From Bacteroidales bacterium (GTDB taxonomy: Bacteria > Bacteroidota > Bacteroidia > Bacteroidales > P3), in contig JAFRRK010000004.1 in NCBI GenBank assembly GCA_017428115.1, forward strand, positions 1 through 44,512: 44,512 nt of DNA, in the 5' to 3' direction. A program made the translations under genes and the position numbers. Numbering within the stretch: the stretch's first letter is position 1; each line of letters begins with the position of its first letter. The notes beneath the pieces were generated by a model. It did not search any database. It was not told where the DNA came from and saw only the letters and a program-made list of their open reading frames with translations. Shown piece after piece: positions 10,505 to 41,696 of the stretch.

Positions 10505-10598
10505 TATTGTTTGTTGGTGAGTTATTGAATAAAGGTTTTTATTATTTGCTGAATTGCTAATAGGCTTTCCGTCTGTTGTTAAGGGTTACGAGCCGTCA

Positions 10599-21618: not shown

Positions 21619-21619
21619 T

Positions 21620-21889: not shown

Positions 21890-21901
21890 ACGTATATCAA
21901 A

Positions 21902-22552: not shown

Positions 22553-22567
22553 ACCTTTAATCTTTTT

Positions 22568-22591
22568 CCAGCCCGCTTTCGGGCGGGCTGG
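22568..22591 (+). terminator. GC-rich perfect hairpin after the lectin-like gene
   Basis: CCAGCCCGC and GCGGGCTGG pair perfectly around the 6-nt loop TTTCGG. No T run follows on the plus strand, so it is weak as an intrinsic terminator. The position just after a lectin-like 3' end also suits the hairpin that many diversity-generating retroelements place beside the variable region. Confidence 0.55.
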
Positions 22592-22622
22592 TAGTTGTTA
22601 AATCACATAATAAGAATAAGAA

Positions 22623-23549: not shown

Positions 23550-23556
23550 TAGCCGA

Positions 23557-23614
23557 TGAGGGGACGTGTGGCAGCGTGGTTTAGCCCATCGGGGTTCGAC
23601 TCCTCGACCCCTCA
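23557..23614 (+). ncRNA. tRNA-like element without an anticodon arm
   Basis: A 7-bp acceptor-like stem pairs TGAGGGG (23557-23563) with CCCCTCA (23608-23614). A 3-bp D-arm-like stem pairs GGC (23570-23572) with GCC (23584-23586) around an 11-nt loop containing GTGGTTTA. A 5-bp T-arm CGGGG/CCTCG encloses the canonical loop TTCGACT (23595-23601). Only about 3 nt lie between the D-like and T arms, so an anticodon arm cannot be formed. No CCA is encoded. It may be a decayed tRNA, an att-like remnant or a functional tRNA mimic. Confidence 0.55.
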
Positions 23615-23637
23615 CAACTTTTCAAAATAGGAAGAAT

Positions 23638-24366: not shown

Positions 24367-24785
24367 TGGAAACCACGTTCATACTGAAACAGAATGGTCA
24401 TTTCGACATCAGTAACCTCAACCAGTGGTTCTGGAACGCTCCCGATGGCAACTACCGTGTCGAGATAACAAAGATACGCCGTAAGCGTACCCTTGACCAA
24501 AACGGCTGGCTCTTTGGGTGCATCTACCCCTTGCTGATGAAAGCACTCAACGATGAGGGTTGGGAATTTGTAACGGTACACCAGGTACACGAATTTTTTA
24601 AGAACCTACTCGGAAAACAGCAGTTCATCAACAAGCATACTGGAGAGGTGGTAGAACTGCCTCAATCGACAGCGGAAATGGACACGGTGGCTTTCTCTAC
24701 CTACTGCGAGAAGCTCCGTGATTATGGGCGCGAGTATCTGAACGTGGAGATACCAGACCCCGATAAACTTTGGAACCACAGATAA
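24366..24785 (+). CDS. NinB-like phage recombination protein
   Basis: This 139-residue protein has the pattern YRVEITKIRRKRTLDQNGWLFGCI near residue 30 and a TGEVVELPQSTAEMDTVAFSTYCEKLRDYG region. Both occur in phage NinB/recombination-accessory proteins with single-strand DNA binding, in particular the R-x-R-T-L-D-Q-N motif. The similarity is moderate. It starts within the stop of the hydrolase gene and is followed 1 nt later by a very small gene. A role in single-strand DNA handling with the RecT-like protein is plausible. Confidence 0.6.
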   Translation: METTFILKQNGHFDISNLNQWFWNAPDGNYRVEITKIRRKRTLDQNGWLFGCIYPLLMKALNDEGWEFVTVHQVHEFFKNLLGKQQFINKHTGEVVELPQSTAEMDTVAFSTYCEKLRDYGREYLNVEIPDPDKLWNHR

Positions 24786-24786
24786 G

Positions 24787-24942
24787 ATGAAAGTAATATC
24801 GAACACCGATTATGATAATATTGTACGTCTGCTGCCAAAGGTGCTGGATGGCATCACTTGGAACACGGACCTCAAAAGGTTCAATGCAGCACGTCAGTTG
24901 AGGAATATGCTCGACAAATGGAATAGGAACAAACCACAATGA
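24787..24942 (+). CDS. Small phage protein (51 residues)
   Basis: The reading frame starts with ATG one nucleotide after the previous stop and its stop overlaps the next gene's start by 4 nt (ATGA). It therefore fits exactly between two genes and is probably translated. The peptide begins MKVISNTDYDNIVRLL and ends with MLDKWNRNKPQ. It looks mostly helical and shows no known motif. Function unknown. Confidence 0.6.
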   Translation: MKVISNTDYDNIVRLLPKVLDGITWNTDLKRFNAARQLRNMLDKWNRNKPQ

Positions 24943-25808
24943 AAAGAAACACATACATCAAGCACGACAGTAACGCTCGAAACGATGAGCGTATGCTGGC
25001 CCTCCGTAGGCAATACGGTATGGAGGGGTATGGTGTATATTGGGCATTGATAGAAAAACTGCGAGAGTCCACCGACTACAAACTCCCCACCGACTACTCT
25101 GCCATTGCGTGGGAGTTGCACGTCAGCGCGAATGTCATAGAACATATCGTTGGAATGAACGAATTGTTCGGTGTGGATGGTGATTTCTTCTACTCCCTTT
25201 GGCTCAATGATGAAATGAAAGTCGTGGATGAGCAGAGAGAGAAGCGGAGTGCTGCCGGAAAACTCGGTATGAAATCACGCTGGGGCAAAGCCGAAAATCA
25301 GCCCCCACAAGCCCCTCAAACAGAATTACCCTTATCATCACCCATCACACCCCCCAATGAGCCACCACAGCCCCCCAAATCACGCCCCAAAAAGTATTCT
25401 GATGCAGAAACACAACTCCATAGCAGATGCAAGGAGATATTTACTGCCTACTACCATCAGAATAAAGGCACAGATTTCTACTGGAGTGCAAAGGAAATGT
25501 CAGCCATTGTCGGCATACTGAAACAGATAAAATTTCAGATGGCCGAGGCAGATCGAGACAACCTTGAACTGGTGGGCACCAATTTCCAAGCATTTATCCA
25601 GATGATATTCGCCAAGGCAGATGATTGGATAAAAGCCAACATCAGCCCGACATTGATACATAGCAAGTTTAATGAAATCTATACTCAATTAAAGAATAGC
25701 ACAAGAAATGGAAACAAGCAATCTTCCGCAAATACCGGAAACGCAAGAGATAATATTGAGTTCATTACACGCATCGCTGCAACCCTACAGTCCGGCGGTA
25801 ATAAGTAA
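24939..25808 (+). CDS. DUF4373/Lin1244-type replication initiation-like protein
   Basis: This 289-residue protein begins with KRNTYIKHDSNARNDERMLA and DYKLPTDYSAIAWELHV, the Lin1244/Lin1753-like N-terminal domain of phage replication proteins. That domain carries a winged-helix-like region. The middle is a Pro/Gln-rich linker (about 105-150), and the C-terminal part, DFYWSAKEMSAIVGIL, resembles DnaD-type helical domains. It probably loads or recruits replication factors at the phage origin. The 3' 101 nt overlap the next gene in another frame. Confidence 0.75.
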   Translation: MKRNTYIKHDSNARNDERMLALRRQYGMEGYGVYWALIEKLRESTDYKLPTDYSAIAWELHVSANVIEHIVGMNELFGVDGDFFYSLWLNDEMKVVDEQREKRSAAGKLGMKSRWGKAENQPPQAPQTELPLSSPITPPNEPPQPPKSRPKKYSDAETQLHSRCKEIFTAYYHQNKGTDFYWSAKEMSAIVGILKQIKFQMAEADRDNLELVGTNFQAFIQMIFAKADDWIKANISPTLIHSKFNEIYTQLKNSTRNGNKQSSANTGNARDNIEFITRIAATLQSGGNK

Positions 25809-26456: not shown

Positions 26457-26639
26457 ATGGAAAATGTAAAAGTAATCTATGGTGGCAGGCCCATCGAAGA
26501 GGTGGTGCACGAAGTCCACGAAGTCAAGGTGCGTGAATGTGAATACTGCGGCGCACCGATGAGCGAGAGCGACGTAAACGATTACGGAACGCTCTGCGAA
26601 AGTTGCTATATGAAAGAATACTATGGGGAGGACTGCTGA
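26457..26639 (+). CDS. Small zinc-finger-like phage protein
   Basis: This 60-residue protein has CEYC and CESC pairs (C-x2-C, spacing about 17), a zinc-ribbon or treble-clef pattern. An acidic tail follows. The stop TGA overlaps the methyltransferase start (TGATG), giving translational coupling. The sequence ACGTATAT lies just before the start. The partner is unknown; a small adaptor for the methyltransferase is possible. Confidence 0.6.
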   Translation: MENVKVIYGGRPIEEVVHEVHEVKVRECEYCGAPMSESDVNDYGTLCESCYMKEYYGEDC

Positions 26640-28222
26640 TGAAAAGGATGCTTTATTATGTGGACCTCTTTTGTGGTGCTGGCGGTACCAGTACTGGAGT
26701 TGAGGCGGCACGGCTACACGGTGAGAAATGTGCCCACGTTCTCGCTTGTGTCAATCACGATCCGAACGCCATAAAGTCTCACGCCTCAAACCACCCCAGC
26801 ACAGTCCACTTTACAGAGGATATTCGGACATTGGCAATGGAACCACTTGCTGATATTGTGGCAAAAGCACGTAGCGCTAACCCAGAAGCATTGGTTGTTC
26901 TGTGGGCATCCCTTGAATGTACCAACTTTAGTAAGGCAAAAGGCGGTCAGCCGAGAGACGCTGACAGCAGAACGCTTGCAAATCACCTCTTCCGATACAT
27001 TGAGGCCATAAACCCAGATTATATACAGATTGAGAATGTTGTGGAATTTATGTCGTGGGGTGAGATTGATGAGCAGGGCAAACCCATCAGCAAACTCAAC
27101 GGAACAGATTACGTCAGATGGTGTAACCGTGTACAGTCATATGGTTATACATACCTTTGGAGAGAATTGAACGCTGTTGATTATGGTGCTTACACGTCTC
27201 GCAAAAGGTTCTTTGGACAGTTCGCAAAGCACGGACTGCCTCACGCCTTTCCAATCCCTACATATTCAAAAGATGGTGCAAGTTCTGATAACCTCTTCAA
27301 CCAGGGCCTGCACAAGTATAAAGCCGTCCGTGATGTTCTCGACCTCAATGATGATGGAGAGAGTATCTTTGGTCGAAAGAAGCCACTCGCAGAGAATACC
27401 CTGCGACGCATCTATGCTGGACTGATAAAGTTCGTTGCTGGCGGTAAGGATAGTTTTCTGTCTCGGTACAATACAGTGAACCCAAAGGACACGGCCAAGT
27501 CATTAGATGTTCCTTGTGGTGTGATAACTACGGAAAACCGATATGCAAAGGTCAAGGCACACTTTCTATCCAAGCAGTTTTCTGGCGACCCGCAAGGTAT
27601 GAATACAAGTATTGAGAAGCCAGCCGGAACGCTCACGTGCATCGACCATCACGCACTAATTACTTACTATGGTAATGGCGGTGCTGTTTCGATTGAGGGA
27701 CCATCCCCCACGATACCGACACACGACAGAGTGGCAAAGGTTACTTTCATAGCCAACGAGTATAGTGGTGGTGGCCAACTTGGAGATATTAACGACATTA
27801 GCCCTGCCATACTTACTACCCCGAAACAGAAACTCGTTACCGCTGATTGCTTTTTAATGAACCCACAATATCAGTCAGCCGGTGGCTCTGTGGATGACCC
27901 TTGCTTCACCCTCATAGCCAGAATGGATAAGATGCCACCCTACTTGGTTCAGACGGAGCAGGGTGTGGCTATTGCCGTATTCGATAATGATAGTCCAATG
28001 ACACGCCAAATCAAGGAGTTTATGGCAATGTATGGCATTACAGATATTAAGATGAGGATGCTCAAAATATCGGAACTGAAAGCCATTATGGGCTTCCCTC
28101 CCGACTATGTGCTGGTAGGCACACAATCGGAGCAGAAAAAGTACATAGGCAATGCCGTAGAGGTTAATATGAGCCGTGTTCTCTGCGAGGCACTGGCTGA
28201 AAGATTGGAGGAAGCAGTGTGA
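26639..28222 (+). CDS. DNA C5-cytosine methyltransferase
   Basis: The enzyme has 527 residues from ATG 26639, chosen because a GGGGAGG ribosome-binding site lies just upstream. Motif I is DLFCGAGGTSTG (9-20). The catalytic cysteine is C94 in SLECTNFSKAKGG, where the usual Pro-Cys-Gln of motif IV is replaced by Glu-Cys-Thr. ENV (132-134) is motif VI, SRKRF is motif VIII, and the C-terminal GNAVEVNMSRVL is motif X. It should be active but has an atypical motif IV. It probably protects phage DNA from host restriction; no cognate endonuclease gene is adjacent. The recognition sequence cannot be inferred. Confidence 0.85.
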   Translation: MKRMLYYVDLFCGAGGTSTGVEAARLHGEKCAHVLACVNHDPNAIKSHASNHPSTVHFTEDIRTLAMEPLADIVAKARSANPEALVVLWASLECTNFSKAKGGQPRDADSRTLANHLFRYIEAINPDYIQIENVVEFMSWGEIDEQGKPISKLNGTDYVRWCNRVQSYGYTYLWRELNAVDYGAYTSRKRFFGQFAKHGLPHAFPIPTYSKDGASSDNLFNQGLHKYKAVRDVLDLNDDGESIFGRKKPLAENTLRRIYAGLIKFVAGGKDSFLSRYNTVNPKDTAKSLDVPCGVITTENRYAKVKAHFLSKQFSGDPQGMNTSIEKPAGTLTCIDHHALITYYGNGGAVSIEGPSPTIPTHDRVAKVTFIANEYSGGGQLGDINDISPAILTTPKQKLVTADCFLMNPQYQSAGGSVDDPCFTLIARMDKMPPYLVQTEQGVAIAVFDNDSPMTRQIKEFMAMYGITDIKMRMLKISELKAIMGFPPDYVLVGTQSEQKKYIGNAVEVNMSRVLCEALAERLEEAV

Positions 28223-28456: not shown

Positions 28457-28903
28457 ATGAACAAAATGAAAGTATATGTCGCCAGCAGTTGGCGCAACGA
28501 ACATCAGCAGTCGATTGTCGAGGAACTGCGAAAAATGGGCTTCGAGGTGTACGATTTCAAGCACCCTAACGGAGAGGCGGGATTTCAATGGAGTAGAATT
28601 GAAGAAAAGTGGCAGGGCTGGAGTATGAAAGAATATAGGGAAGCCCTCAAAACAGAATACGCTCAATTCGGCTTCAACAGAGATTTTGATGCAATGAAAG
28701 AGGCTGACATCTGTGTATTATGTCTGCCGTGTGGTAGGAGCGCTCACCTTGAAGCAGGGTGGATGAAAGGTGCTGGCAAAAAGGTCATTGCGTACATTCC
28801 GCAAGATGTGAAGATTGAGCCGGAATTGATGTATGGTTTGCTTGATGGAATTGCCATCAGCATCCAAGATGTTGAGCAGATGCTGAAAGGAGGCAACCAA
28901 TGA
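28457..28903 (+). CDS. Nucleoside 2-deoxyribosyltransferase-like protein
   Basis: The protein has 148 residues. The opening KVYVASSWRNEHQQSI is typical of the NDT/DUF4406 fold. FDAMKEADICVLCLPCGRSAHLEAGW contains the acidic region and the Glu (E99) that serves as nucleophile in nucleoside deoxyribosyltransferases. It may exchange or trim bases or nucleosides, for example to supply modified nucleotides or degrade nucleotide signals. It overlaps the next gene by 4 nt. The start could also be ATG 28466. Similar proteins occur in phage modification loci. Confidence 0.7.
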   Translation: MNKMKVYVASSWRNEHQQSIVEELRKMGFEVYDFKHPNGEAGFQWSRIEEKWQGWSMKEYREALKTEYAQFGFNRDFDAMKEADICVLCLPCGRSAHLEAGWMKGAGKKVIAYIPQDVKIEPELMYGLLDGIAISIQDVEQMLKGGNQ

Positions 28904-29637
28904 ACAAAACCAGCATTGCGTGGACTGAACGCACTTGGAACCCGGTTACTGGCTGCACCAAGTACTCTGCAGGGTGCGCCCATTGCTATGCCGAGGTGAT
29001 GGCGAAACGTCTGCAAGGTATGGGCCAGAAACGCTATGCCAACGGCTTCCAACTCACTCTGCATCCAGAGGCATTGAGAGAACCGATGAAAGTCAAGGAG
29101 CCGAGTATGTTTTTCGTCTGCTCGATGGCAGACCTCTTCCACGATGATGTACCCTTTGAGTTTGTGGATAGTGTAACCACCACAATCACCCTCACGCCGA
29201 GACACACCTACCAGTTGCTGACGAAACGAATAGCCAATATGCACGACTACTTTACTCACGGCAGGGAAGTCTCTCCCAACTGCTGGATTGGTACAACGGT
29301 GGAAAATGCAGATGCAAAACGAAGAATACCTTGGCTTGCAGAAATCAAGACCGCTCCAGTCCGCTTTCTTTCCTGCGAACCCCTGCTGGGCGACCTCGGC
29401 GAACTTGACCTATTCAATATCGATTGGGTAATAGTCGGTGGTGAGTCCGGCAATCAAGCCAGACCAATGAAGAAAGAGTGGGTGATGAATATCAAACGTC
29501 AATGCGACGAGCAGGGTGTGCCATTCTTTTTCAAGCAATGGGGAACCTATGACGAGGATGGTGTCAAGCGTGATAAGAAAGCCAACGGCTGTCTGCTCGA
29601 TGGCCAAGTCTATCAAGCCTGGCCGAAATGTTGGTAA
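28900..29637 (+). CDS. DUF5131 (phage Gp37/Gp68) family protein
   Basis: This 245-residue protein begins SIAWTERTWNPVTGCTKYS with cysteines at 19, 26 and 29, the set that in this family resembles an iron-sulfur site. Further parts (FFVCSMADLFHDDVP, YQLLTKRI, WIGTTVENADAKRRI, FLSCEPLLGDL, DWVIVGGESGNQARPM, FKQWG) follow the family's usual order. The reaction is not known, but the three cysteines and the TIM-like repeats suggest a radical-SAM-type or metal enzyme. It overlaps the NDT-like gene by 4 nt, so the two are probably linked. Confidence 0.85.
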   Translation: MNKTSIAWTERTWNPVTGCTKYSAGCAHCYAEVMAKRLQGMGQKRYANGFQLTLHPEALREPMKVKEPSMFFVCSMADLFHDDVPFEFVDSVTTTITLTPRHTYQLLTKRIANMHDYFTHGREVSPNCWIGTTVENADAKRRIPWLAEIKTAPVRFLSCEPLLGDLGELDLFNIDWVIVGGESGNQARPMKKEWVMNIKRQCDEQGVPFFFKQWGTYDEDGVKRDKKANGCLLDGQVYQAWPKCW

Positions 29638-31387: not shown

Positions 31388-31789
31388 ATGGAGATATACA
31401 CATCATATTTTGGAAACCTCAAAGCCCTACACAAGGCTGGAGTAATGCCGATAGGTATTGCCCGATGGAAGCCACGCTTCTATGAGGGTGTCAATATGTT
31501 CTCGGTAGCCCCGACACGCTATATGCTGTCGGATGAATGCGAACACGAAGAGTATCTTGAACTGTATGAAGAGATACTGCGTAAACGTGGTGCACAGAGC
31601 ATACTCGGGGAAATTTGCACCATAGCCCAAGGTCGCAACGTGGCCCTGCTCTGCTATGAGAAGCCCGGTGATTTTTGCCACCGCCATCTGCTGGCTGATT
31701 TTCTCAATAAAGAACTTGGTCTGAATATCCGTGAGTTTAAAGCCCCTGCCCCTGCTCCCAAACCCACCCAAACCTCTCTATTCGATTAG
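31388..31789 (+). CDS. DUF488 family protein
   Basis: The protein has 133 residues. The family signature is clear: MEIYTSYFGN at the start and ALLCYEKPGDFCHR at 86-99, with C89 and the C97-H98-R99 motif. The last about 20 residues are a Pro/Ala-rich tail ending TSLFD. The fold is small and Rossmann-like. The activity is unproven, but the conserved Cys suggests a catalytic or metal role. It is the first gene of the modification-like cassette; the next begins 2 nt after its stop. Confidence 0.8.
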   Translation: MEIYTSYFGNLKALHKAGVMPIGIARWKPRFYEGVNMFSVAPTRYMLSDECEHEEYLELYEEILRKRGAQSILGEICTIAQGRNVALLCYEKPGDFCHRHLLADFLNKELGLNIREFKAPAPAPKPTQTSLFD

Positions 31790-31791
31790 CT

Positions 31792-32550
31792 ATGAGTGAA
31801 CTTGCTATTACCAAGAGAACATTCGGCATCGAGTGGGAACTTGCCGATGTTGTCCGTGCGTCAGTTGAAATGCCGGACGGCTTCGTCTGGGATAAAGACG
31901 AGATTGTTCAGAACACAGATATGAGTGAGGGTAGAAAGACGGTTCCCATTGGTGGTGAATTGAACACCGACCCGATGCACCTCTGCCATAAAGACTTTGC
32001 TCGGCTCAAACAGTTCATCGACAGCGCACGTCAGAACGGCGCCCAAGCCATCAGAGACCTCGCCTTGCAAGTCCACATCTACATTGGCGACCTGACTGTA
32101 GATGAGGTGAAGAATATCTTTTATCTGAGTTACTACACCAGCGGACTTCTGAAAGAGATATGCCACACGCCGGAATACTCCGACCTGCAAATATACCGCC
32201 CCAGCCCCACGCTGGAAAAGTATGTTGGTATCAAGGCGGCCACAGACTTTCGTGGCATTGAGAGGGTGTTTGAGAATAACAGTTGCAAAGGCTACGACCG
32301 TTGCATTGTCAATATAGCATCCTATTTCAAACGCAAAACGGTCGAGTTCCGATGCTTCAACTCGACCACCAGTTTTGAGGAGATGGTGAACTGCGTTATG
32401 TTCTCGTACCGCTTCGTTCAGTATGCCATCACCCACAACGAGGATGATTTCAAACAAATCAACTCAATAAATGACTTTGCAAGCCTCATAAAAGCCCCTT
32501 TAAGCCTCCCAATCTGCCCACCCCCCACTCATCTATTATGCAGACGTTGA
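31792..32550 (+). CDS. Amidoligase (ATP-dependent COOH-NH2 ligase) domain protein
   Basis: This 252-codon frame matches the amidoligase fold: FGIEWELADV (11-20), GGELNTDPMH (about 61-70), LQVHIYIGDL (about 91-100) and VEFRCFNSTTSFEEM (about 183-197). These enzymes resemble glutamine synthetase and join a carboxylate to an amine with ATP. The frame ends after a poly-C run with the poor peptide CPPPTHLLCRR. The downstream frame (32504 onward) is open with no start before GTG 32612. I think the two are one protein, split by a +1 shift in the C6 tract (32521-32526). Confidence 0.8.
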   Translation: MSELAITKRTFGIEWELADVVRASVEMPDGFVWDKDEIVQNTDMSEGRKTVPIGGELNTDPMHLCHKDFARLKQFIDSARQNGAQAIRDLALQVHIYIGDLTVDEVKNIFYLSYYTSGLLKEICHTPEYSDLQIYRPSPTLEKYVGIKAATDFRGIERVFENNSCKGYDRCIVNIASYFKRKTVEFRCFNSTTSFEEMVNCVMFSYRFVQYAITHNEDDFKQINSINDFASLIKAPLSLPICPPPTHLLCRR

Positions 32551-32611
32551 AAGCCAAAATAAAGACATCTACATCCATCCACACATAGACCTCAATTCGA
32601 GTTTCTTTTCT

Positions 32612-33850
32612 GTGCTTGTGGAGAATACTGGAGATACCCTCTCTTGTGTCAATCCTAAACTCTACAGCACCGAAATGAAGTTGAGTAAGTATAAGAAAAT
32701 CACCATCTATAATAATGATGAGTTTCAGCACCTTATCTATCTTGTTGCTACTGGCCAGCATAAAGTCCACTACAAGGAGTATGCGTATTTCTTGGAGGAG
32801 CGTAACAGCGATGATGTGGAAACACAACTGGCCCTGCTTCTGATATTCCACAGCATCAAGAATAACTTTCGCTCACAGGAGTATTATCAACAGCAACTCG
32901 ACAGCATCAAGGATAGTTTTGAAGAGACGTTCAAGGATGCAAAAAATTTTGCCCAGCAACTCGCCAAGTTCCTCTCTAACTGCACCTACAAACTCGGAAC
33001 GCTCAATGATGCCCTGCGGGATGGCGGTGATGTTTTCTTCCAGTTTGACAGTTACAAGAAAAACCACTCGACAATTACCAAGTTGCACAAGAATAGCGAC
33101 TACTCGCTCACGTTCAACGATCTGACTACCTACTACAACCACGTCGAAGAAAACCTGCCCGAAGGCACAGACTTGTTTATGATGAGTACCAATCAGTACC
33201 TCCAAATGAACAAACTGGCCAAGAGTGGGGGCAAGGTACTCTACACGACCAAAAACGTGAAAAAGAACCGTATAGAATACCACCAAGACGAAGCATCCCT
33301 TATCAGTTACACAGAGCCGAAAGACGATGTGCAAATCATCGACCCAGCCAAACTTAAAATCGTACAAGTAACGCCCAGCCAACTCCGCTTTTTCCAGCAG
33401 AGGTACATCAAGAAAGTTCGCAAAGTGTCGCTCTGTAAGTTCGGTTTCCTGGTCCTGTATGACAACGACGTGTTGGGTGGATTTGGCTTCGACTACTCCA
33501 AGATTGTGGACTTCGACCTCTGGCTACTCTCGGACTTCTGCACCAACAATAATGTGCCGAGATTGAGTAAACTCATCCTTATGTGTATCAAGTCCAAGCA
33601 GGTGCAACGCACCATATCAAGGGCAACTGGACGCTATATCTCGTATATCTACACCAAGGTCTATACACACGCCCCAGTATCGATGAAGTATCGTGGTCAG
33701 TTCACCAAGTACGATAAGAAGAAATGGAAGCAGGATGATGTGTTTGAGGATTATCTTATGTACGTCACAAACCTCGGTCAAATTACTGGCAATGAAGAGA
33801 TAATAAACCAATATCAACAATCATTAAAACGCAGTCAGAAAAATGGCTAA
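32612..33850 (+). CDS. Mom-like acyltransferase domain protein (3' part of the split gene)
   Basis: The frame is open from 32504; the first possible start is GTG 32612, which has no ribosome-binding site. The peptide encoded before it (PPLIYYADVESQNKDIYI) reads like coding sequence. The C-terminal about 150 residues resemble Mom-type GNAT acyltransferases: LYDNDVLGGFGFDYSK, DLWLLSDFCTNNNVPRLSKL (about 299-318), and PVSMKYRGQF (about 354-363). Mom of phage Mu attaches an acetamido-type group to the N6 of adenine in DNA. Joined to the amidoligase, the whole would be about 685 residues. The overlap with the ParB-like gene is 8 nt. Confidence 0.7.
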   Translation: MLVENTGDTLSCVNPKLYSTEMKLSKYKKITIYNNDEFQHLIYLVATGQHKVHYKEYAYFLEERNSDDVETQLALLLIFHSIKNNFRSQEYYQQQLDSIKDSFEETFKDAKNFAQQLAKFLSNCTYKLGTLNDALRDGGDVFFQFDSYKKNHSTITKLHKNSDYSLTFNDLTTYYNHVEENLPEGTDLFMMSTNQYLQMNKLAKSGGKVLYTTKNVKKNRIEYHQDEASLISYTEPKDDVQIIDPAKLKIVQVTPSQLRFFQQRYIKKVRKVSLCKFGFLVLYDNDVLGGFGFDYSKIVDFDLWLLSDFCTNNNVPRLSKLILMCIKSKQVQRTISRATGRYISYIYTKVYTHAPVSMKYRGQFTKYDKKKWKQDDVFEDYLMYVTNLGQITGNEEIINQYQQSLKRSQKNG

Positions 33851-34589
33851 ATGGAAATTAGCAGAGGTCGCCATAGAGAAGCTCCAGGAGTCCGAGCTTA
33901 ACGCCAACGTAATGACGGATGCGTACTTTAACCGCCTCGTTGAGAACATCAAAATCAGTGGTGGTTTAAGTTCTGCCATCGGTTGTGTAAAGAAAGGCGA
34001 CGTATATCAGATATTCAGCGGACACCACCGTTACCGTGCTGCCGTCCAACTCCGCTACAAGACGGTGCCGGTTATCTACGCCGAAGAGGAAGATATGACC
34101 CACGACGAGTTGATTGCCCTCCAGACCTCACACAACTCTCTTCACGGTGAGGATGACAAGGGCATACTCCGTCGCCTCTTCGAGCAAATCCAGTCCATTG
34201 AGTTCAAGGAGTTTGCCAACATCGACATCAACGAGATAACGCCCATTGCAGTCGATAACATCGGCTTCGGTGTGGAACAGGAACAGTACTCTGTCTCGCT
34301 GGTGTTCTACAAGAAAGAAAAGGCCCTGCTGGAGGAACTCCTTGGCATCGTCGCGGAACAAACCACTACACACGATATGGTCATCCTCGCCGACGCTAAC
34401 GATAACGAGGAGTTCTACCTCCAGTTGATGAAAGCCATCGAGCGTAAGTATCAAATCAAGTCCACCAGCACACGCTTCCAAAAGCTGCTGGAACTGGCCA
34501 AAAAAGCATTGGACGATGAAAATAGGAATAGTAAGCGAAACAAGAAATCTGGAGAGCCGGACACCGCTGACCCCTCGGACAATCAGTGA
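33843..34589 (+). CDS. ParB/Srx-like domain protein
   Basis: The protein has 248 residues. The N-terminal domain shows the ParB signature: ESELNANVMTDAYFNRLVEN, and FSGHHRYRAAVQL (58-70), the box that in ParB binds nucleotide. No helix-turn-helix follows, unlike chromosomal ParB. The rest is helical and ends in a basic/acidic tail. ParB-like domains are known beside Mom genes in phages, sometimes as nucleases. It overlaps the Mom-like gene by 8 nt and the dehydrogenase-like gene by 74 nt, so all are closely coupled. Confidence 0.8.
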   Translation: MAKWKLAEVAIEKLQESELNANVMTDAYFNRLVENIKISGGLSSAIGCVKKGDVYQIFSGHHRYRAAVQLRYKTVPVIYAEEEDMTHDELIALQTSHNSLHGEDDKGILRRLFEQIQSIEFKEFANIDINEITPIAVDNIGFGVEQEQYSVSLVFYKKEKALLEELLGIVAEQTTTHDMVILADANDNEEFYLQLMKAIERKYQIKSTSTRFQKLLELAKKALDDENRNSKRNKKSGEPDTADPSDNQ

Positions 34590-35715
34590 ACTGCTCGACA
34601 TCGACCGCACCCTCTCTTTCGTGGTGCAGCCCAGCAATACTCGCATCATCCCCGATAGCGAGTATTTGTCGTCTGGTGCAATCGTGTCATCAAACCTCTC
34701 CGACTGCGACCTCATATTAGGCGTAAAAGAGCCCTCTACAGCCTCTATCATACCCAACAAACACTATTTCTTCTTTGGCCATCTTGACGATAAACCACCC
34801 TATAATAAAGAACTATTCAAGGCACTCAAAGAGAGGCATATCACGTTCACCGACTACGAACTTATAAAAGACAATCACGGCAAGCGCATCATCGCCTTTG
34901 GCTACTGGGCCGGCATCGCTGGAGTATATGACACACTACGCCTCTATGGTGAGAAGTATGGCTGCTATGATCTGCCCAAACTCAACGAGACATTCACCAA
35001 GCAAATGGTCCTCGACAACCTCGCCAAGGTGTCGCCCATCCTGCTCCAGCGCAAGGTGAAAACCCTCATCATTGGTTACGGACGTGTCGCCAGCGGAGTG
35101 CGTGAAATCCTCAACGCCATCGGCATCAAGTACACCCCTGCTTGTAAGTTTAAGTATATGGTGAACGAAGAAACGTGCTACAGCATCGTCGGTGCTGCTG
35201 ACCTCACCTTTGACACCTACGGCTACAAGTTCGACCCTGCGACATTCCACGCCAACCCAGAGCGTTTCGCCTCTCGTTTCTTCCCCTACGCAGAGGCAAC
35301 CGACATTCTGCTCTGCTGCCATTGCTACCAGCACGGCGCCCCGGTGTACCTCGACGAAAGACTGGTGAAAGGCACAAAGAACCGCATTCGTGTTGTTGGC
35401 GACATCACTTGCGACGTAAATGGTAGTGTGGCTACCACGACCAGGTACTCGACCCACACCTCTCCATTCTATGACATCGACCACTCCCTACAAGAGGCAA
35501 AACTGTTTGAAGACAGCGACAATATTTCAGTAATGGCTGTGGATAATCTGCCAAACGCCCTTGCAAAAGAAGCCAGCGAGGACTTTTCGGATATGGTCAA
35601 GAGGGTTGTCATCGAGGGAGTAAAGGAAAATGCCAAGTACATTCAAGAGGCAACGATGTTTGTTAATGGCAGATTGTCAGATAGATATAAAAACCTTAAT
35701 CAATACCTAATGTAG
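34516..35715 (+). CDS. Saccharopine dehydrogenase (Lys1)-like enzyme
   Basis: This 399-residue protein follows Lys1/AlaDH-PNT architecture. The N-terminal domain begins MKIGIVSETRNLESRTPLTP. ILGVKEP (K71) and FFFGHL (H89) align with the catalytic Lys and His of fungal Lys1. The NAD-binding loop is IIGYGRVASG (185-194). The C-terminal VMAVDNLPNALAKEASEDFS matches the family's end. Lys1 oxidises saccharopine to lysine and 2-oxoglutarate, so reversed it joins an amine to a 2-oxoacid by reductive amination. Such a gene is rare in a phage, and its place after Mom-like and ParB-like genes suggests it makes a precursor or forms an adduct. Confidence 0.8.
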   Translation: MKIGIVSETRNLESRTPLTPRTISELLDIDRTLSFVVQPSNTRIIPDSEYLSSGAIVSSNLSDCDLILGVKEPSTASIIPNKHYFFFGHLDDKPPYNKELFKALKERHITFTDYELIKDNHGKRIIAFGYWAGIAGVYDTLRLYGEKYGCYDLPKLNETFTKQMVLDNLAKVSPILLQRKVKTLIIGYGRVASGVREILNAIGIKYTPACKFKYMVNEETCYSIVGAADLTFDTYGYKFDPATFHANPERFASRFFPYAEATDILLCCHCYQHGAPVYLDERLVKGTKNRIRVVGDITCDVNGSVATTTRYSTHTSPFYDIDHSLQEAKLFEDSDNISVMAVDNLPNALAKEASEDFSDMVKRVVIEGVKENAKYIQEATMFVNGRLSDRYKNLNQYLM

Positions 35716-35716
35716 T

Positions 35717-36133
35717 ATGAGCGACTTACAGAATGAACAGATAAAAAAGGCGACCAAAAAGAAGCCGACGAGGAAAGCCATCGCCGACGTGTATGAGAAG
35801 AAAGCCGCCAATATGTCAGCCACGGCCATTGCCCTCGGTGTCAGTAGAACCACCCTCTATGAGTGGCGAGAGAAAGACCCTAAACTCGATGCTCTGATGC
35901 ACGAGGTTGAGGAGTCTTTGATTGACTTTACCGAAAGCAAGTTACTGACCCAGATAAAAGATGACAATATGACAGCCATCATATTCCACCTAAAGACCAA
36001 AGGAAAGAAGCGTGGTTACACAGAGGGTGAGGAAATTGAGGTTAAGCAGACCAATGACCTCGATTTGTCGGGTCTATCAGATGAGGAACTCGACACTATG
36101 ATGACGCTGTTGAGGAAAGCGAAAAAGAAATAA
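35717..36133 (+). CDS. Terminase small subunit-like HTH protein
   Basis: The protein has 138 residues. A basic N-terminus leads to an HTH, ATAIALGVSRTTLYEWREKD (about 36-55), of the kind that recognises packaging DNA in small terminases. A helical oligomerisation part follows, ending with the Lys-rich tail MMTLLRKAKKK. It starts 1 nt after the preceding stop and is followed 2 nt later by the large terminase gene, which supports the call. Confidence 0.8.
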   Translation: MSDLQNEQIKKATKKKPTRKAIADVYEKKAANMSATAIALGVSRTTLYEWREKDPKLDALMHEVEESLIDFTESKLLTQIKDDNMTAIIFHLKTKGKKRGYTEGEEIEVKQTNDLDLSGLSDEELDTMMTLLRKAKKK

Positions 36134-36135
36134 CA

Positions 36136-37599
36136 ATGGGAACCAGGACGTGGAAAGCCGATATGCCATTGAGTGTTCTCGCTATGGTGGAAGCCTTTAA
36201 GAGAGGGCGCTTTGACTTTATCACCAAGCGAGGTGATAAAGATGGCCCAAAGCACGAGAAGCAGGATGCCGCTCTCCGTGTCCTCGTTGATAATGAACAC
36301 TCTGAATTTCTTTATGGTGGTGCTGCTGGTGGTGCCAAGTCGTGGACTGGAGCAACGTGGGAACTGTTTATGGCCCTCGCATACCCAGAAACAAGATACT
36401 TTGTTGGCCGTGCCGTTCTGAAACGCCTTATGGAGTCCACCCTACCTACGTTCCATAAGGTTATGAAAGCGTATGAGATACCAGATACCCTTTATCACTT
36501 CAATGGCGGTTACAACTACTTCCAATTCTACAACGGCTCTCGTATTGACTTCGTGGCCTTGGAGCGTAAGCCAAGCGACCCATTCTTTGAAACACTCGGC
36601 TCAATCGAGTACACCAGCGGATGGATCGAGGAGGCTGGTGAGGTATGCTTCGATGCTTACGACACCCTCCGCACACGTATCAACCGCCAAATGAACGATG
36701 CTTATGGCATATATGGAAAGTTATTCATCACTTGCAACCCGAAAAAGAATTGGATGTTCCGTATCTTCTATGAGCCTTGGAAGAAAGGCCTGCTGGATGC
36801 CAAGAAATGCTATATGCCGTGCCTGGTGCAGGAAAACCCATTCATTGAAAGTGGTTACATTGAAAAGCTCCGTGAGATTGGCGATAAGGTCAAGAAAGAA
36901 CGTCTGCTAAAGGGAAACTGGGACTATGAGGATAATCCTAACGCCCTCTGTCAGTACGATGATATATGTGCCATCTTTGGAAATAAAATCTCCATACGCA
37001 ACGGCAACTTTTACCTTACGGCTGATGTGGCTCGTTTTGGCTCCGACCGTGCAAGAATACTTGTATGGGATGGCTACACGGTCGTTGATTTACGGTCTTT
37101 CGACACCTCCTCGACAACCGAGATAGAGCAGTGTATTCTCCATTTCCAAAGGCTCTATCACATACCATCCTCTCGCTGCATTGCTGATGAGGACGGCGTT
37201 GGAGGAGGTGTTGTTGACCATACTGGCTGCGTTGGCTTCCGTAACAATGGCTCTCCTATGCTGGAACCCACAGAGTACACAGCAGAGAACTATATGAACC
37301 TACAGACCCAATGCGGCTACCGCCTTGCAGACCATATCAATAACCACGATGTTGGTTTTGAGCCGTCATTGGTATCAGAAGAGGAGAAAGAACAGATTGT
37401 GCTGGAGGTCGAACAGCTCCAGACGTGGAATGGTGATAGTGATGGTAGGTTACAACTCAAGCCCAAGGCGGAAATCAAGGAAGATATAGGGCACAGTCCA
37501 GACTGGCGTGATGCAATGCTTATGCGTTGCTATTTCGACTACACAGACACCGCCCTCCCGAAAGATATAGAAAAACGTTTGTCAAATTTAATGCTATAA
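36136..37599 (+). CDS. Terminase large subunit
   Basis: The protein has 487 residues. Walker A is GGAAGGAKS (61-69). TSGWIEEAGEV carries the Walker-B-type acidic pair (EE). The nuclease part shows LTADVARFGSDRARILVWDG (about 295-314, with D for metal) and IADEDGVGGGVVDHTG (about 352-367), then DWRDAML near the C-terminus. It is an ATPase plus nuclease that cuts concatemers and fills heads. The length is normal. The family type (cos or pac) is not decided by this reading. Confidence 0.9.
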   Translation: MGTRTWKADMPLSVLAMVEAFKRGRFDFITKRGDKDGPKHEKQDAALRVLVDNEHSEFLYGGAAGGAKSWTGATWELFMALAYPETRYFVGRAVLKRLMESTLPTFHKVMKAYEIPDTLYHFNGGYNYFQFYNGSRIDFVALERKPSDPFFETLGSIEYTSGWIEEAGEVCFDAYDTLRTRINRQMNDAYGIYGKLFITCNPKKNWMFRIFYEPWKKGLLDAKKCYMPCLVQENPFIESGYIEKLREIGDKVKKERLLKGNWDYEDNPNALCQYDDICAIFGNKISIRNGNFYLTADVARFGSDRARILVWDGYTVVDLRSFDTSSTTEIEQCILHFQRLYHIPSSRCIADEDGVGGGVVDHTGCVGFRNNGSPMLEPTEYTAENYMNLQTQCGYRLADHINNHDVGFEPSLVSEEEKEQIVLEVEQLQTWNGDSDGRLQLKPKAEIKEDIGHSPDWRDAMLMRCYFDYTDTALPKDIEKRLSNLML

Positions 37600-37603: not shown

Positions 37604-39151
37604 ATGTCATTCAAGGAAAAAATTAAAGGTATCTTTGGTGCTATCGCCAATGAAATCAATGCAGCAGTAGGCTACCAGCAAACCTTTACTGAACTGCTCG
37701 ACAACAACGACGTAACGCGGGCCATCGGACTGCTGGAGAAACGCTCCGACCAAGCCGTAAAGAACCTACTGGAGTACAACACCAAAACCCACAAGGTGAT
37801 GAACCGCCCGGCCAAGGCTATCTACGACAAAAATGGCGATTTCATCCGCAACAAGGAAGTGAACCGTGTGGCTATCCCTTATCACAAATTCATCAACGAG
37901 ATAGCATTGGTGTTTATGTATGGCAGACCCGTCCTGTGGAGTAATGCAACGCCCAACCCCAGAGCCGATGAGCGTCGCTTGCTCCAAGAGCAACTTGGGC
38001 AGCCGGAGCATAGTGAGGAGGTAGAGAACACCATTGCAGAGATTGACGCCTACTCGGAAATGATGGATGCCAAGTTTCAGCGGCTCAAAGACCAACTGGA
38101 TGATTGTCGCTTTGATGCTCATCTGCGTGAGGCGAAACGCTATGCCGGTTGTGAGGGCTGCTCTGCTATGCTGTTCCATACCTACCAAGAGGATGGTGAG
38201 CCGAGGATGCTTATTCGTGTGCTGGCCAAGAGTAAGAATGATGACATCTACACCCTCTTCGACCAGTACAACCGACTGACGGCATTCGCTTGGGGCTACA
38301 CAACGCTCAATGCGGATAACAAGTCCGTGTACCACTACGACATCTACACGAAAGAGTTTGTGTATTATTGTCAGAATGTCGGTGGCTCTCGCTGGGAGGT
38401 TGACAAGAAACCCAATCTCGTCAAAAAGATACCAGTCATCGTGTTCATCCAAGAGGTGGAATGGGATGGCACACAGTCTATCATCGAGCGCATCGAGGAT
38501 GCCTACTCTCGCAACGCCGACAGCAATGATAACTTTGCTGATCCGGCTCTGGTGGCCACAGCCGACATCATAAACACCCTGCCCAAGCAGGAAGAGGAGA
38601 GTAAACTCTATGTGTTGAAGAATGGCGGTGATATTAAGTACCTAGAACGCTCCAACGCCAACCAAGCACGTCAAGACGAGATTGATGCCCTCGACGAGCA
38701 GGCAATGAGCAAATCGTTCACCCCGAACATTACCATCGAGGACCTGCGTGGACTGGCCAACGCCAGCGGAACCACTCTCGAACACGTTATGATGCTCGGC
38801 ACCATCAAGGCCGATATGCGTAAGGAAACCCACGACGGCTACCTCTCGCGTACTGGCAATCTGATGAAAGCCATTATGGGCAATGTGCTGGACGTGAAAG
38901 GTGGCAGCTACGAGGAGTTGGTCATCCATCACGAATTTCAGCCGCCCTTTGGCGATGATGTTGCCATAGCCGTTGACCGTCTTATGCGCCAGTATGGTGG
39001 TGGCGGTATGTCGCTACAGACCCTGCTGGAGAAATCACCTCTCATCGACAATGCCGATAAGGAAATGGAGCGTATCAACAAGGAGAAATCCAAAGAGGAT
39101 GAACGGCGCAAACAAGCCTCTCTAATGGACGTTTTTGAACCCACCCTATAA
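37604..39151 (+). CDS. Portal protein (SPP1 gp6-like)
   Basis: This 515-residue protein follows the large terminase by 4 nt, the expected place for the portal. It has a helical N-terminus, IVFIQEVEWDGTQSIIERIEDAYS (about 279-302) and a FADPALVATADIINTLPKQE segment. The C-terminal part is helical and acidic, ending with a Lys/Glu tail. This fits the dodecameric head-tail vertex portal. No anomalies. Confidence 0.85.
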   Translation: MSFKEKIKGIFGAIANEINAAVGYQQTFTELLDNNDVTRAIGLLEKRSDQAVKNLLEYNTKTHKVMNRPAKAIYDKNGDFIRNKEVNRVAIPYHKFINEIALVFMYGRPVLWSNATPNPRADERRLLQEQLGQPEHSEEVENTIAEIDAYSEMMDAKFQRLKDQLDDCRFDAHLREAKRYAGCEGCSAMLFHTYQEDGEPRMLIRVLAKSKNDDIYTLFDQYNRLTAFAWGYTTLNADNKSVYHYDIYTKEFVYYCQNVGGSRWEVDKKPNLVKKIPVIVFIQEVEWDGTQSIIERIEDAYSRNADSNDNFADPALVATADIINTLPKQEEESKLYVLKNGGDIKYLERSNANQARQDEIDALDEQAMSKSFTPNITIEDLRGLANASGTTLEHVMMLGTIKADMRKETHDGYLSRTGNLMKAIMGNVLDVKGGSYEELVIHHEFQPPFGDDVAIAVDRLMRQYGGGGMSLQTLLEKSPLIDNADKEMERINKEKSKEDERRKQASLMDVFEPTL

Positions 39152-39509: not shown

Positions 39510-39839
39510 ATGGAAAACACGAACACAAAGAAGAAAACCAACATCGAGGAATGGCATCGAATGATGGACGAATACGACCGCGAACTTGCAGAAAGTCGAA
39601 GACGTACTGGCAGGCCGGAAAAAAACCAGCCCGAAGAGTGTATGGACGAACTGCTTGTTGAATATGACGTAAAGCACATATACGAGGCAATGTGTGAGCA
39701 CAAGTCCCTCAAGCGGGCCCTCGAAGATTACCCACACCAAATGACAGCAGAAGAATTCAAAAAAAATGTTGTGTGGGTTATGAAGTTTCAATCTTGGAAA
39801 TCCTTTGAGGGGGAATGTGGTTCATATTTAGATGCCTAA
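39510..39839 (+). CDS. Hypothetical phage protein
   Basis: The protein has 109 residues from ATG 39510; an upstream TTG at 39456 would add 18 residues. It is highly charged, with an acidic/basic helix (EWHRMMDEYDRELAESRRRT) and PHQMTAEEF toward the end. Its 3' end overlaps the convergent MuF gene by 12 nt. No family was recognised. Confidence 0.5.
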   Translation: MENTNTKKKTNIEEWHRMMDEYDRELAESRRRTGRPEKNQPEECMDELLVEYDVKHIYEAMCEHKSLKRALEDYPHQMTAEEFKKNVVWVMKFQSWKSFEGECGSYLDA

Positions 39840-41696
39840 ATAATCCTCAAGCACCTGCATCTGCATAACATCGTCAGTCCGTAGTATGCCCTCCCAAGTT
39901 GTTTTATAGAATAAATCTCTCGACCAGTCATAACCAGTCAGCAGATTCATTGGGAATGGGTCTTTTGCGTTGTTTGACGTGTACCATTTTTCGACTATAG
40001 AAAGAGCCTCTGTTACATCAACCTTATTTACCTCACCAGCAGACACAATGAAGTTGGTGAGGTATTTTTGTCCGTGCCGGAACGTGAAGCCATACCGAGC
40101 CCAAGTGTATGCCCCATTGGTTATGTTGGCACATACTTGAATTATGTCCACGCCAGCCTTTTTGTAACCATCGTAAAGGTGGCGAAACACAGCCTTTGAA
40201 ATGCCTTGGTCTTGCATCTTTGGAGGAATGGTAAATTCATCGTGGTCCACTCTCACTTCCCCATTCTTTAACCTGCCGAATGTCCTGCCTATTCTGATAC
40301 CCTTGACACTTTCATACTCCAATGTTATGTTCCTGTCATAGACAGTAATAGCTCGTTCCTTAATCTTATCCCCATATTCGGCAAGTACATTGTTAAAGGC
40401 GTCATCAAATTCGAGAACGCCAAACTTTGAGATTGGGTTATAGAGAAACATCTGCTTAATGTCGGGATTTTTGGTGTAAAGTACTCGACCGCCAACCTCA
40501 AACCGCTCATTGACTGCATCCCATTGCTCGTCTGGTGTCAGTAGTTTTGGTATATGCCTACGCATTGCAGCGTACACCTCTTCTTTATTGTCGCGGATAA
40601 AATATGGTAACGAACCCCGTTTCTCCGCAGCGGCAATACGCTCCTTATTGGCTTTTGTCCACCGCACAAAGTTATCGGGCAGTTTCTCAACCTTGCCAGC
40701 AGCCTCAACATCGTCGGGGTCTCCCCCATCCAGTATAGCATCAACCATCCTATCCACCTCTTCTTTAGTGGCGAGTATAGGCACTTGATAGCACATACAA
40801 TTGGGGTGCCAGCCAGTCCACTTGAAATCTTTCGGATAGACACCGGCCAATTCGTCACAGATGTCTTGAACATGGTATGGGTTGTTGGATAGGCGTATCT
40901 CTATGCCAATCACAAATGAAAACTCTTGGTATCGGTCATAGTCGGCTGTACGGTAGGCGATGTTCGTGGTGGTTCTCGCATACCTCAGTGCGTTCCTGTA
41001 CGATGAATGATACACCCCTTGTCCGGTCGGATAGTCTCTTGGGTCGGCATCTTTCCATGTGGTGCTACCATCCTCGTGGGTGATACGTTTCTTCCATTTG
41101 CGTCCATACATCGACTTTCCCTCTGCATCCTCCCCAGTTTTTATTCTGAATCTGCGGAAACAGTCATCTGGATTGACAAGGTAATCCTCCAGTAATGCAG
41201 CCATACGTTTTGCCCCTACACCATCCATCAGAGCCTCTTCCACGGCTGTTTCCATCTGCCCCAGTACGGCACCATTCCACACTCTCTGTGACGCGGTGAT
41301 GCTACCATCCCTGCTGGCCCTAATGAAAGCCTTTGCAGCATTGCCACTCGACACCCTCGGTGAGAACGCTCGCAGAACTTCCCCACTTAACCTTTCGCCT
41401 ACAACCTGCCTTATAAGCTCATTACATCCCTCATAAGCCTCTCCAAACTCGGCTATAATACCTTTATCCACCACCTGCTGAATTTGCCTCTCTAAGCGCG
41501 TCATTATCTCATCCACTTTGTCGAACTTTCCGTAATCCTCAAATGAGAATGGTGCTTCTGGATTATAGTCCACGGCAGCGAACACCTTGGATATGTCGGC
41601 AAGGGCATGGTCATACAATGCACGAACACCGTCGGCATACCTGTTGGTTCGTTTAACCAACTCGCTACGCAGTTTTTTGTAGTCAATCTTAGTCAT
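39828..41696 (-). CDS. MuF-like head morphogenesis protein with GNAT-like C-terminus
   Basis: This 622-residue protein has a helical N-terminal half. The MuF core includes YARTTTNIAYRTADYDRYQ (about 240-258) and ends in TGWHPNCMCYQVPI (about 291-304), the HPNC motif of Mu gpF/SPP1 gp7 proteins that load or stabilise the head vertex. The C-terminal about 200 residues differ: QGISKAVFRHLY (about 496-507) and TWARYGFTF look like motif A and the C-terminal motif of GNAT acyltransferases. This is a fusion seen in polyvalent phage proteins, whose C-termini may act in the host cell on DNA delivery. It is on the minus strand, unlike the neighbouring head genes. Confidence 0.75.
   Translation of the reverse strand: MTKIDYKKLRSELVKRTNRYADGVRALYDHALADISKVFAAVDYNPEAPFSFEDYGKFDKVDEIMTRLERQIQQVVDKGIIAEFGEAYEGCNELIRQVVGERLSGEVLRAFSPRVSSGNAAKAFIRASRDGSITASQRVWNGAVLGQMETAVEEALMDGVGAKRMAALLEDYLVNPDDCFRRFRIKTGEDAEGKSMYGRKWKKRITHEDGSTTWKDADPRDYPTGQGVYHSSYRNALRYARTTTNIAYRTADYDRYQEFSFVIGIEIRLSNNPYHVQDICDELAGVYPKDFKWTGWHPNCMCYQVPILATKEEVDRMVDAILDGGDPDDVEAAGKVEKLPDNFVRWTKANKERIAAAEKRGSLPYFIRDNKEEVYAAMRRHIPKLLTPDEQWDAVNERFEVGGRVLYTKNPDIKQMFLYNPISKFGVLEFDDAFNNVLAEYGDKIKERAITVYDRNITLEYESVKGIRIGRTFGRLKNGEVRVDHDEFTIPPKMQDQGISKAVFRHLYDGYKKAGVDIIQVCANITNGAYTWARYGFTFRHGQKYLTNFIVSAGEVNKVDVTEALSIVEKWYTSNNAKDPFPMNLLTGYDWSRDLFYKTTWEGILRTDDVMQMQVLEDYLGI

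Follow-up and report, generated by a model that had tools for sequence, protein, structure and literature searches.

A putative DNA hypermodification cassette with an exchangeable amino-acid enzyme in a Bacteroidales prophage

The 44,512-nucleotide stretch analyzed here (hereafter the window; positions 1 to 44,512 of contig JAFRRK010000004.1, Bacteroidales bacterium, GCA_017428115.1) is part of a 2.78 Mb assembly that is 80% complete and, judged by its phage genes, appears to be a prophage. Directly upstream of its genes for the terminase small subunit (terS), the terminase large subunit (terL), and the portal protein, five genes on the plus strand (31388-35715) encode a DUF488 protein, an amidoligase, a DAM-like/GNAT protein, a ParB-like protein, and an enzyme related to LKR and Lys1. 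We read them as a phage DNA hypermodification cassette, with a probability of roughly 0.6, which probably hangs amino-acid-like groups on the phage DNA. Comparison of the sequences establishes the gene set, its conservation, a gene fusion in its center, the loss of methylase motifs in the fused protein, and repeated swaps of enzymes in one gene slot.

The first gene (31388..31789, +) encodes a DUF488 protein of 133 amino acids that belongs to the N3a "active" subclade (PF22751, 2e-9, 38.2 bits against a cut-off of 27; PF04343, 30.1 bits against 22.2; phrog_2450, 1e-33). Its Cys89, Lys92-Pro93, and Cys-His-Arg 97-99 are invariant in all eight aligned proteins from Bacteroidota, Firmicutes, and Actinobacteria phages. 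The amidoligase domain, a member of the COOH-NH2 ligase family, follows at 31792..32550 (+; Amidoligase_2, PF12224, 5e-11, 43.4 bits against 22), and the residues R9, T10, G12, E14, E16, E56, H95, D100, R170, E185, and R187, which are invariant in 24 of 24 relatives as well as in 38 aligned fused proteins, were found by eye in the window gene. The third open frame (32513..33850, +) carries a DAM-like domain, a degenerate methylase (DAM-like-phage2, PF22556, 6e-15, 55.9 bits against a curated cut-off of 27), and a GNAT-like acyltransferase domain (GNAT-phage-like, PF22559, 1.6e-31, 109.8 bits against a curated cut-off of 27). A Thr and the motif PVSMKYRG of the GNAT domain are invariant in all 12 alignment rows, VSMKYR is invariant in the 38 aligned fused proteins, and this region is kept only in part in the more distant proteins of Faecalibacterium phage FP_Brigit and locus L053. 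The fourth gene (33843..34589, +) encodes a ParB/Srx-fold protein of 248 amino acids (ParB_N, PF02195, 2.8e-6, 27.7 bits against 26.3; phrog_7405, 8.5e-57), whose GxxR box residues G60, H62, and R63 are invariant in 12 of 12 proteins and whose solved relatives include Noc/ParB (1.6e-6 by profile). The fifth (34516..35715, +) encodes an LKR/saccharopine dehydrogenase (Lys1)-like NAD(P) enzyme of 399 amino acids (AlaDh_PNT_N, PF05222, 4.7e-21) and occupies the exchangeable slot.

The gene set is conserved well outside the window. In a roe-deer rumen metagenome-assembled genome (MAG) of the same genus (G029; its contig is locus L025 and also L055), the five genes share 80-93% protein identity with those of the window, and the ratio of nonsynonymous to synonymous substitution rates (dN/dS) is 0.04-0.14 for them and 0.04 for terL, rough values with synonymous sites near saturation. 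In five IMG/VR contigs, which collapse to two clusters when grouped at 90% GNAT identity, the genes follow one another as DUF488, fused protein, ParB, LKR, terS, at 38-61% identity. Five loci were found in a genome scan, namely that of G029, those of two further deer-gut MAGs, and those of a Paludibacteraceae MAG and Capnocytophaga catalasegens. Loci L055 and L059, both in rumen prophages, hold the fused gene intact together with the ParB, DUF488, and LKR-like genes. The DAM-GNAT combination is rare: it occurs in 2 of 148 genomes of relatives and PF22559 in 4 of 395 genomes of the phylum (the window's own counted in both), and, apart from the split copy of the window, a single genome among 393 of the order has a full-length fused match, and the 395 genomes of the class have none. 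In 50,697 phage records searched by tblastn, the fused protein matched with its C-terminal part only, in 13 actinophage records, and the Lys1-like protein had no match at E 1e-5. A smaller core of DUF488, DAM-like-GNAT, and ParB, without the amidoligase, is carried by phages of Mycobacterium, Gordonia, and Faecalibacterium and also occurs in further Bacteroidota genomes.

We annotated 163 loci, using a GNAT profile built from 9 of 12 chosen rows, and the 161 loci with GNAT form 94 clusters at 90% identity; GNAT and ParB are carried by 94 non-redundant clusters. These counts cover the best-scoring part of the relatives, because the GNAT scan kept the best 80 of 298 and the ParB scan the best 80 of 99. 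The clusters were pooled from several scans, each cluster being judged by one representative, and the pool favors LKR because one scan started from the LKR protein. An amidoligase is present in 39 clusters and was not detected in 55. The 39 amidoligase clusters all contain the ParB-like gene, 38 contain terS, and 37 contain DUF488, the contigs of the other two ending too early. On these comparisons the gene set is real, far beyond chance. The initial annotation had held that genes scattered and unrelated in other phages would speak against a cassette; the database search of the neighborhood gave the opposite picture, since the cassette genes travel together in other phages.

In relatives, genes 2 and 3 are fused, and we therefore regard the two window genes as halves of one gene, the amidoligase being the N-terminal and the DAM-like/GNAT part the C-terminal portion. 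A single open reading frame (ORF) of 685 amino acids spans both in G029, and the representatives of 38 of the 39 amidoligase clusters carry amidoligase, DAM-like, and GNAT domains in one ORF. PHROG 2443 (801 positions) is matched by gene 2 at positions 216-372 and by gene 3 at positions 431-800. With a profile of the fused protein, the amidoligase match stops at 32529 and the DAM-GNAT match starts at 32513 in another frame; the last residues of gene 2 are out of frame relative to G029, and gene 3 is an open frame without a clear start of its own. The frame change sits in the linker between the amidoligase and DAM-like domains, so both domains are complete, and the dN/dS values against G029 are about 0.04 and 0.08 for the halves (rough, with silent sites near saturation). 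The split may have arisen by recent mutation, may be tolerated, or may be an artifact of assembly. A programmed frameshift was considered as its cause and rejected, because the relatives are fused in a single frame (38/39 clusters). The sole unfused cluster is that of Capnocytophaga catalasegens (L058, 8992-11019), with two ORFs and a break that lies elsewhere, inside the amidoligase. Thus, the initial description of five consecutive, mostly overlapping plus-strand genes holds for positions and strand, with genes 2 and 3 now counted as one gene in relatives; overlaps exist between genes 3 and 4 (8 nt) and between genes 4 and 5 (74 nt, also present in G029), but genes 1 and 2 are spaced by 2 nt and genes 2 and 3 do not overlap.

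The presence of the amidoligase coincides with a change in the DAM-like domain. We searched for methylase motifs with an FxGxG-like pattern for motif I and a [DNS]PP[YF] pattern for motif IV in the 86 of 94 clusters with proteins of sufficient length. Neither pattern matched any of the 39 amidoligase-type proteins, which thus lack these marks of an active Dam enzyme, whereas the pattern for motif I was found in 40 and that for motif IV in 26 of the 47 amidoligase-free proteins. The protein of L053 has a canonical DPPY. The methylase fold seems to have turned non-catalytic on the branch that gained the amidoligase, and in the amidoligase-free relatives the domain still looks like an N6-adenine methylase.

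The position taken by the LKR-like gene in the window is filled by different amino-acid enzymes in related phages. Among the 39 amidoligase clusters, 12 have a racemase-like gene with a small GNAT and/or a Cys-rich protein, 9 an opine dehydrogenase with a Ddl-like ATP-grasp ligase, 8 LKR, 3 a racemase-like gene with an ATP-grasp gene, 3 ATP-grasp alone, and 3 a racemase-like gene (accompanied by a small GNAT-like gene in two of them and by a divergent ATP-grasp in the third); only L093, whose contig starts inside the gene, has no slot enzyme. Conversely, 54 of the 55 clusters without a detected amidoligase have no slot enzyme, the exception being L143, which has LKR and a contig that starts inside the GNAT gene. 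After two very short rows were excluded, and with clusters kept only if 700 or more bases lie upstream or the enzyme itself was observed, profiles detect a slot enzyme in 38 of 38 amidoligase clusters and in 0 of 43 clusters without amidoligase. Of these 43, 38 have at least 2.5 kb upstream. Across all 43, an unfiltered search of the 163 unassigned ORFs that have at least 180 amino acids and lie no more than 4.5 kb away yielded slot matches of E 0.04 at best. The clusters of the GNAT scan alone show the same pattern (30/31 with and 1/20 without amidoligase, the exceptions again being L093 and L143). On the tree of the 38 fused proteins, which was built quickly and has weak support at 7 of its 35 inner branches, slot enzymes must switch in kind at least 7 times, LKR forms one clade, and no loss of the slot enzyme was seen within the amidoligase clade.

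A scan with the amidoligase domain only returned 66 loci, 56 of them newly annotated. Of the new loci, 49 carry the GNAT fusion, mostly on contigs already counted, and each of these has a slot enzyme. Profiles detected it in 48, and that of L284 was recognized by eye only, which shows that divergent slot enzymes can escape the profiles. The remaining new loci are 6 distant stand-alone amidoligases without GNAT or slot enzyme and 1 truncated gene. No slot-type neighbor was found by profile at any of the 6 distant phage amidoligases that are not fused to GNAT. Loci L286-L291, L301, and L302 are such distant stand-alone phage amidoligases, and in L301 the gene lies close to terS, a ParB-like gene, and, by eye, an ORF resembling a PAPS-reductase-type protein. 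Genome G562, which was not used in framing the association, has the order DUF488, opine dehydrogenase, amidoligase/GNAT, ParB, ATP-grasp, terS, terL and agrees with it, and G740 fits the core type without amidoligase. In L095 (in the cluster of L098 and on the same contig as L254) an ATP-grasp gene was found but no opine dehydrogenase by profile.

The opine dehydrogenase matches Octopine_DH (PF02317, 1.6e-27 and 8e-32) and, among solved structures, N-(1-D-carboxylethyl)-L-norvaline dehydrogenase (PDB 1bg6, 2e-18), and the ATP-grasp protein matches Dala_Dala_lig_C (5e-14 and 1e-19) and Ddl in the PDB (4e-17). Matches of the racemase-like protein are weak (ornithine racemase Orr, 7e-6; D-ser_dehydrat, 6e-4, below cut-off; PDB 3llx, 0.04); one lysine, presumably the pyridoxal phosphate lysine, is invariant in 15 of 15 aligned proteins (the alignment holds 15 of the 18 rows that were found). 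LKR and the opine dehydrogenases belong to different families and catalyze one reaction type, the reductive joining of an amine and a 2-oxoacid; their replacement of each other therefore points to opine-type chemistry. In L071, an opine dehydrogenase of a different subfamily (about 10180-11403) lies between terS and terL and not before the amidoligase, and it was possibly acquired independently.

A profile of six phage copies of the LKR-like enzyme matched the LKR domain of AASS (6e-47) and yeast Lys1 (3e-23) in the PDB, and alanine dehydrogenase at only 6e-9. The similarity to AASS LKR and yeast Lys1 covers most of the chain and includes a conserved active-site region. H89, E115, and R124 are invariant in the six phage copies and K71 is Arg in one; we take these four to be the catalytic residues. 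The label "saccharopine dehydrogenase-like" can hence be narrowed to a relative of the saccharopine-forming enzymes LKR/Lys1, with the correction that its position in the cassette is interchangeable in relatives. By its family, the enzyme would join an amine and a 2-oxoacid to an opine-type product. Unlike AASS LKR and yeast Lys1, it is phage-borne and locked into a cassette. It shares 30-42% identity with chromosomal Bacteroidales relatives, and in eight chromosomal Lys1-like contexts inspected by eye, two share an epimerase-like neighbor and otherwise no common neighbors were seen. A tree of phage and chromosomal LKR proteins, with 9 of 18 chromosomal rows kept, did not separate one recruitment from two.

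The fusion, the constant ParB gene, and the supply enzymes for unusual amino acids fit best with a DNA base that carries an amino-acid or opine adduct. That DNA is the target, and likewise the base chosen, the order of the steps, the adduct, and a benefit against restriction or other defence, we infer from the gene set. In the mechanism that we propose, DUF488, the DAM-like/GNAT protein, and ParB would form a core acting on DNA, in which the DAM-like domain may hold or flip the base and the attached GNAT domain would move an acyl or aminoacyl group onto it. In the window's clade this protein has the amidoligase attached at its front, so an amide bond between this group and an amino acid could form on the same protein. 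The exchangeable neighbor would supply or tailor the amino acid: in the window, a saccharopine-reductase-like enzyme would combine an amine and a 2-oxoacid into an opine-type product, and other phages would rely on an opine dehydrogenase paired with a Ddl-like ligase, or on a racemase-like protein paired with either a GNAT or such a ligase. Because the amino-acid enzyme is swapped among related phages, the cassettes suggest that such phages make different DNA tags. More speculatively, and with clearly less confidence than in the cassette as such, we envisage a modular pathway for amide-linked opine or pseudopeptide adducts in which the writer (DUF488, amidoligase-DAM-like-GNAT, ParB) stays fixed while the side-chain supplier is exchanged, and whose different tags would reflect an arms race against defence enzymes that recognize them. 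An amino-acid-like adduct on phage DNA had been proposed at the outset, and it now has strong comparative support from the fusion (38/39 clusters), the ParB gene (39/39), and the amino-acid or peptide-bond enzymes (38/38); the part of the proposal that did not survive is homology to Mom.

Mu Mom, which places an acyl group on adenine N6, resembles the cassette in having a GNAT-type domain in a phage DNA-modification setting and in a possible adenine target. However, the cassette GNAT has no detectable sequence relation to Mom, and the cassette is multi-domain and multi-gene. Alignment of the GNAT alignment with Mu Mom by hhalign gave a probability of 0.6%, the PHROGs differ (1384 for Mom, 2443/7858 here), and a seven-row Mom alignment gave 0.75%, a shallow comparison as the Mom rows are 85-96% identical. 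We therefore call the protein GNAT-like and have dropped the name Mom-like.

A closer functional parallel is provided by Synechococcus phage S-B43, in whose DNA carboxymethylcytosine amide-ligated to glycine (5-glycylcarboxymethylcytosine) was shown experimentally in 2025 (PMC12783734). In the CmoA/CmoX/CmoY system of this phage, as in the mechanism proposed here, a handle on the base is joined to an amino acid through an amide by an ATP-dependent ligase, a methylase-derived enzyme takes part, and ParBc genes are present; a ParBc gene occurs in many such contigs, and the authors of that study expect further amide adducts (PMC12783734). The enzymes differ: CmoY is asparagine-synthetase-like and CmoX is a C5 methylase using carboxy-S-adenosylmethionine (PMC12783734), whereas the cassette combines a fusion of Amidoligase_2, a degenerate DAM-like domain, and GNAT with DUF488 and with amino-acid enzymes that can be swapped. 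The five genes gave no matches to CmoA, C5 methylases, or asparagine synthetases in Pfam, NCBIfam, and PHROGs. We read the cassette as an amino-acid/opine-type DNA hypermodification system that works like the CmoX/CmoY DNA-glycine ligation and is not homologous to it. A separate C5 cytosine methylase-like gene exists in the prophage (26603-28222, +, 539 amino acids; PF00145, 1.1e-25; phrog_116, 2e-75); the PPC motif is absent from it, and the search for CmoA covered the five cassette genes.

Thymidine hypermodification also puts amino-acid or amine groups on phage bases (alpha-putrescinylthymine, alpha-glutamylthymine, and others), by pathways that start from hydroxymethyl-deoxyuridine. The five cassette genes match none of its enzyme families in Pfam or PHROG. 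The core had been recognized before, since Pfam holds DAM-like-phage1/2, GNAT-phage-like, and DUF488-N3a, names which suggest that these families were seen earlier as phage DNA-modification parts. For PF22751, PF22556, and PF22559 the window proteins pass the curated cut-offs, and the amidoligase-free relatives pass that of PF22555; the source of these four families is presumably Burroughs and Aravind (2023). None of the matches listed from the open-access literature describes the cassette. The impression that no characterized system has exactly this set must accordingly be qualified in two respects, as the core families are already in Pfam and similar chemistry was reported in 2025 for other enzyme families (PMC12783734).

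Several points weigh against DNA hypermodification. The chemistry of the cassette is predicted from the comparison of genes, and the fused protein has no match among solved structures in a PDB search. As 0 of 39 amidoligase-type proteins retain the methylase motifs, it is a conjecture that the DAM-like domain binds a base. The amidoligase-DAM-GNAT gene is frame-broken in the window, and this copy may be inactive, or the assembly may be wrong. On the GNAT tree, amidoligase and slot each change once (99% support), so their association has one origin, not 38, and the table of 38 against 43 clusters counts as one event. The distant amidoligases L301 and L302, which lack GNAT, likewise lie at most a few kb from a ParB-like gene. 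Finally, racemases, Ddl-like ligases, and amidoligases belong to cell-wall peptide chemistry as well. An alternative is that the cassette builds a peptide-like moiety destined for the cell wall or for a surface receptor, to exclude superinfection, a role proposed for other phage amidoligases; in PMC11318856, which cites Iyer 2009, a phage amidoligase is described as a modifier of wall receptors. The racemase-like and Ddl-like enzymes together with the amidoligase do resemble wall-peptide enzymes. Nevertheless, this amidoligase is fused to a DNA-methylase-derived domain and accompanied by ParB and DUF488 in a late packaging operon, and the listed cassettes showed no gene of wall or membrane function; we regard a wall target as improbable.

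The place of the cassette beside the terminase genes raises another alternative, in which its substrate would be the DNA ends or the terminase's packaging site, to be processed or marked, and not bases across the genome. In 37 of the 39 amidoligase clusters terS lies at most 150 nt from the last cassette gene, terS/terL are also downstream in FP_Brigit and G740, and terminase-large-like ORFs were seen by eye downstream in many amidoligase-free clusters; DUF488 enzymes, moreover, were reportedly predicted by Burroughs and Aravind in 2023 to act on DNA ends. This arrangement has to be set against the packaging operon being a common site for inserted late genes and against the TerS profile, which was built from the amidoligase group, matching in 11 of the 55 clusters without amidoligase. 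Amidoligase, racemase, opine dehydrogenase, and Ddl-like ligase also have no role in known packaging, and we consider an end-directed function unlikely. Some phage GNATs acetylate the host RNA polymerase (PMC7824862), and the cassette might likewise aminoacylate or acylate a protein, be it that polymerase, the capsid, or a different host factor. The association with ParB speaks for DNA, however, as do the methylase motifs in the DAM-like domain of amidoligase-free relatives (motif I pattern in 40/47), which leaves a protein target very improbable in our view.

If hypermodification of DNA by the cassette is correct, it would represent another, unrelated enzyme route to amino-acid-tagged DNA, with an adduct apparently exchangeable through one gene slot; we know of no other case of a DNA adduct exchangeable by a swap in one slot. 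Families that so far have no assigned role (DAM-like-phage1/2, GNAT-phage-like, DUF488-N3a, and PHROGs 2443, 7405, and 7858) would then join into a testable pathway, and tools for DNA-amide ligation may follow. The core cassette is present in the cultured Gordonia phages Jollymon and Soos, in Mycobacterium phage Argie, and in FP_Brigit; in the last, a gene annotated as S-adenosylmethionine synthetase lies upstream of the core (L004, 1515-2693).

CTP, ATP, or GTP serve as ligands of ParB-fold proteins, CTP is also bound by an archaeal fusion of a ParB fold with DUF488-HTH, and ParB-fold/DUF4417 fusions are reported in phages (PMC12704722). A DUF4417 gene adjoins the cassette in L080 (PF14386, 8.7e-33), and a similar protein was seen by eye in L088. 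DUF488 relatives with 37-39% identity occur in the Lak megaphages of Prevotella (15 records), in which the window GNAT protein has no match. In L041, L042, and L043, a small conserved ORF of ~80 amino acids lies between DUF488 and the amidoligase.

PADLOC models gave only weak candidate-family matches on the cassette, to DUF488 (best 3e-7) and, with a methylase model, to ParB (0.0015), and no match on the amidoligase, DAM-like/GNAT, or LKR-like gene, so that the cassette does not correspond to a known anti-phage defence system of that collection. No tRNA gene was found within the window, and no striking repeats were seen within the cassette. Downstream of it lie terS (35717..36133, +; phrog_309, 1.4e-8), terL (36136..37599, +; PF04466, 3e-11; phrog_2, 9.5e-22), and the portal gene (37604..39151, +; phrog_64, 4e-48), and opposite to this late operon a gene at 39828-41696 (-) has "Bxa ADP-ribosyl transferase" as its best PHROG (4.6e-119) together with head-morphogenesis matches. 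Upstream, a DUF5131 gene (28900-29637, +; PF07505, 1.4e-100; PADLOC candidates PDC-M30B/M41B, 6e-106 and 2e-102) possibly has a defence or nucleic-acid function, and just before it a gene at 28457-28903 (+) shows a weak match to nucleoside 2-deoxyribosyltransferase (PF05014, 2e-5, below cut-off). SbcC-like, RecT-like, metal-dependent hydrolase, and replication-initiation genes at 19687-25808 (+) make up the recombination and replication module of the prophage.

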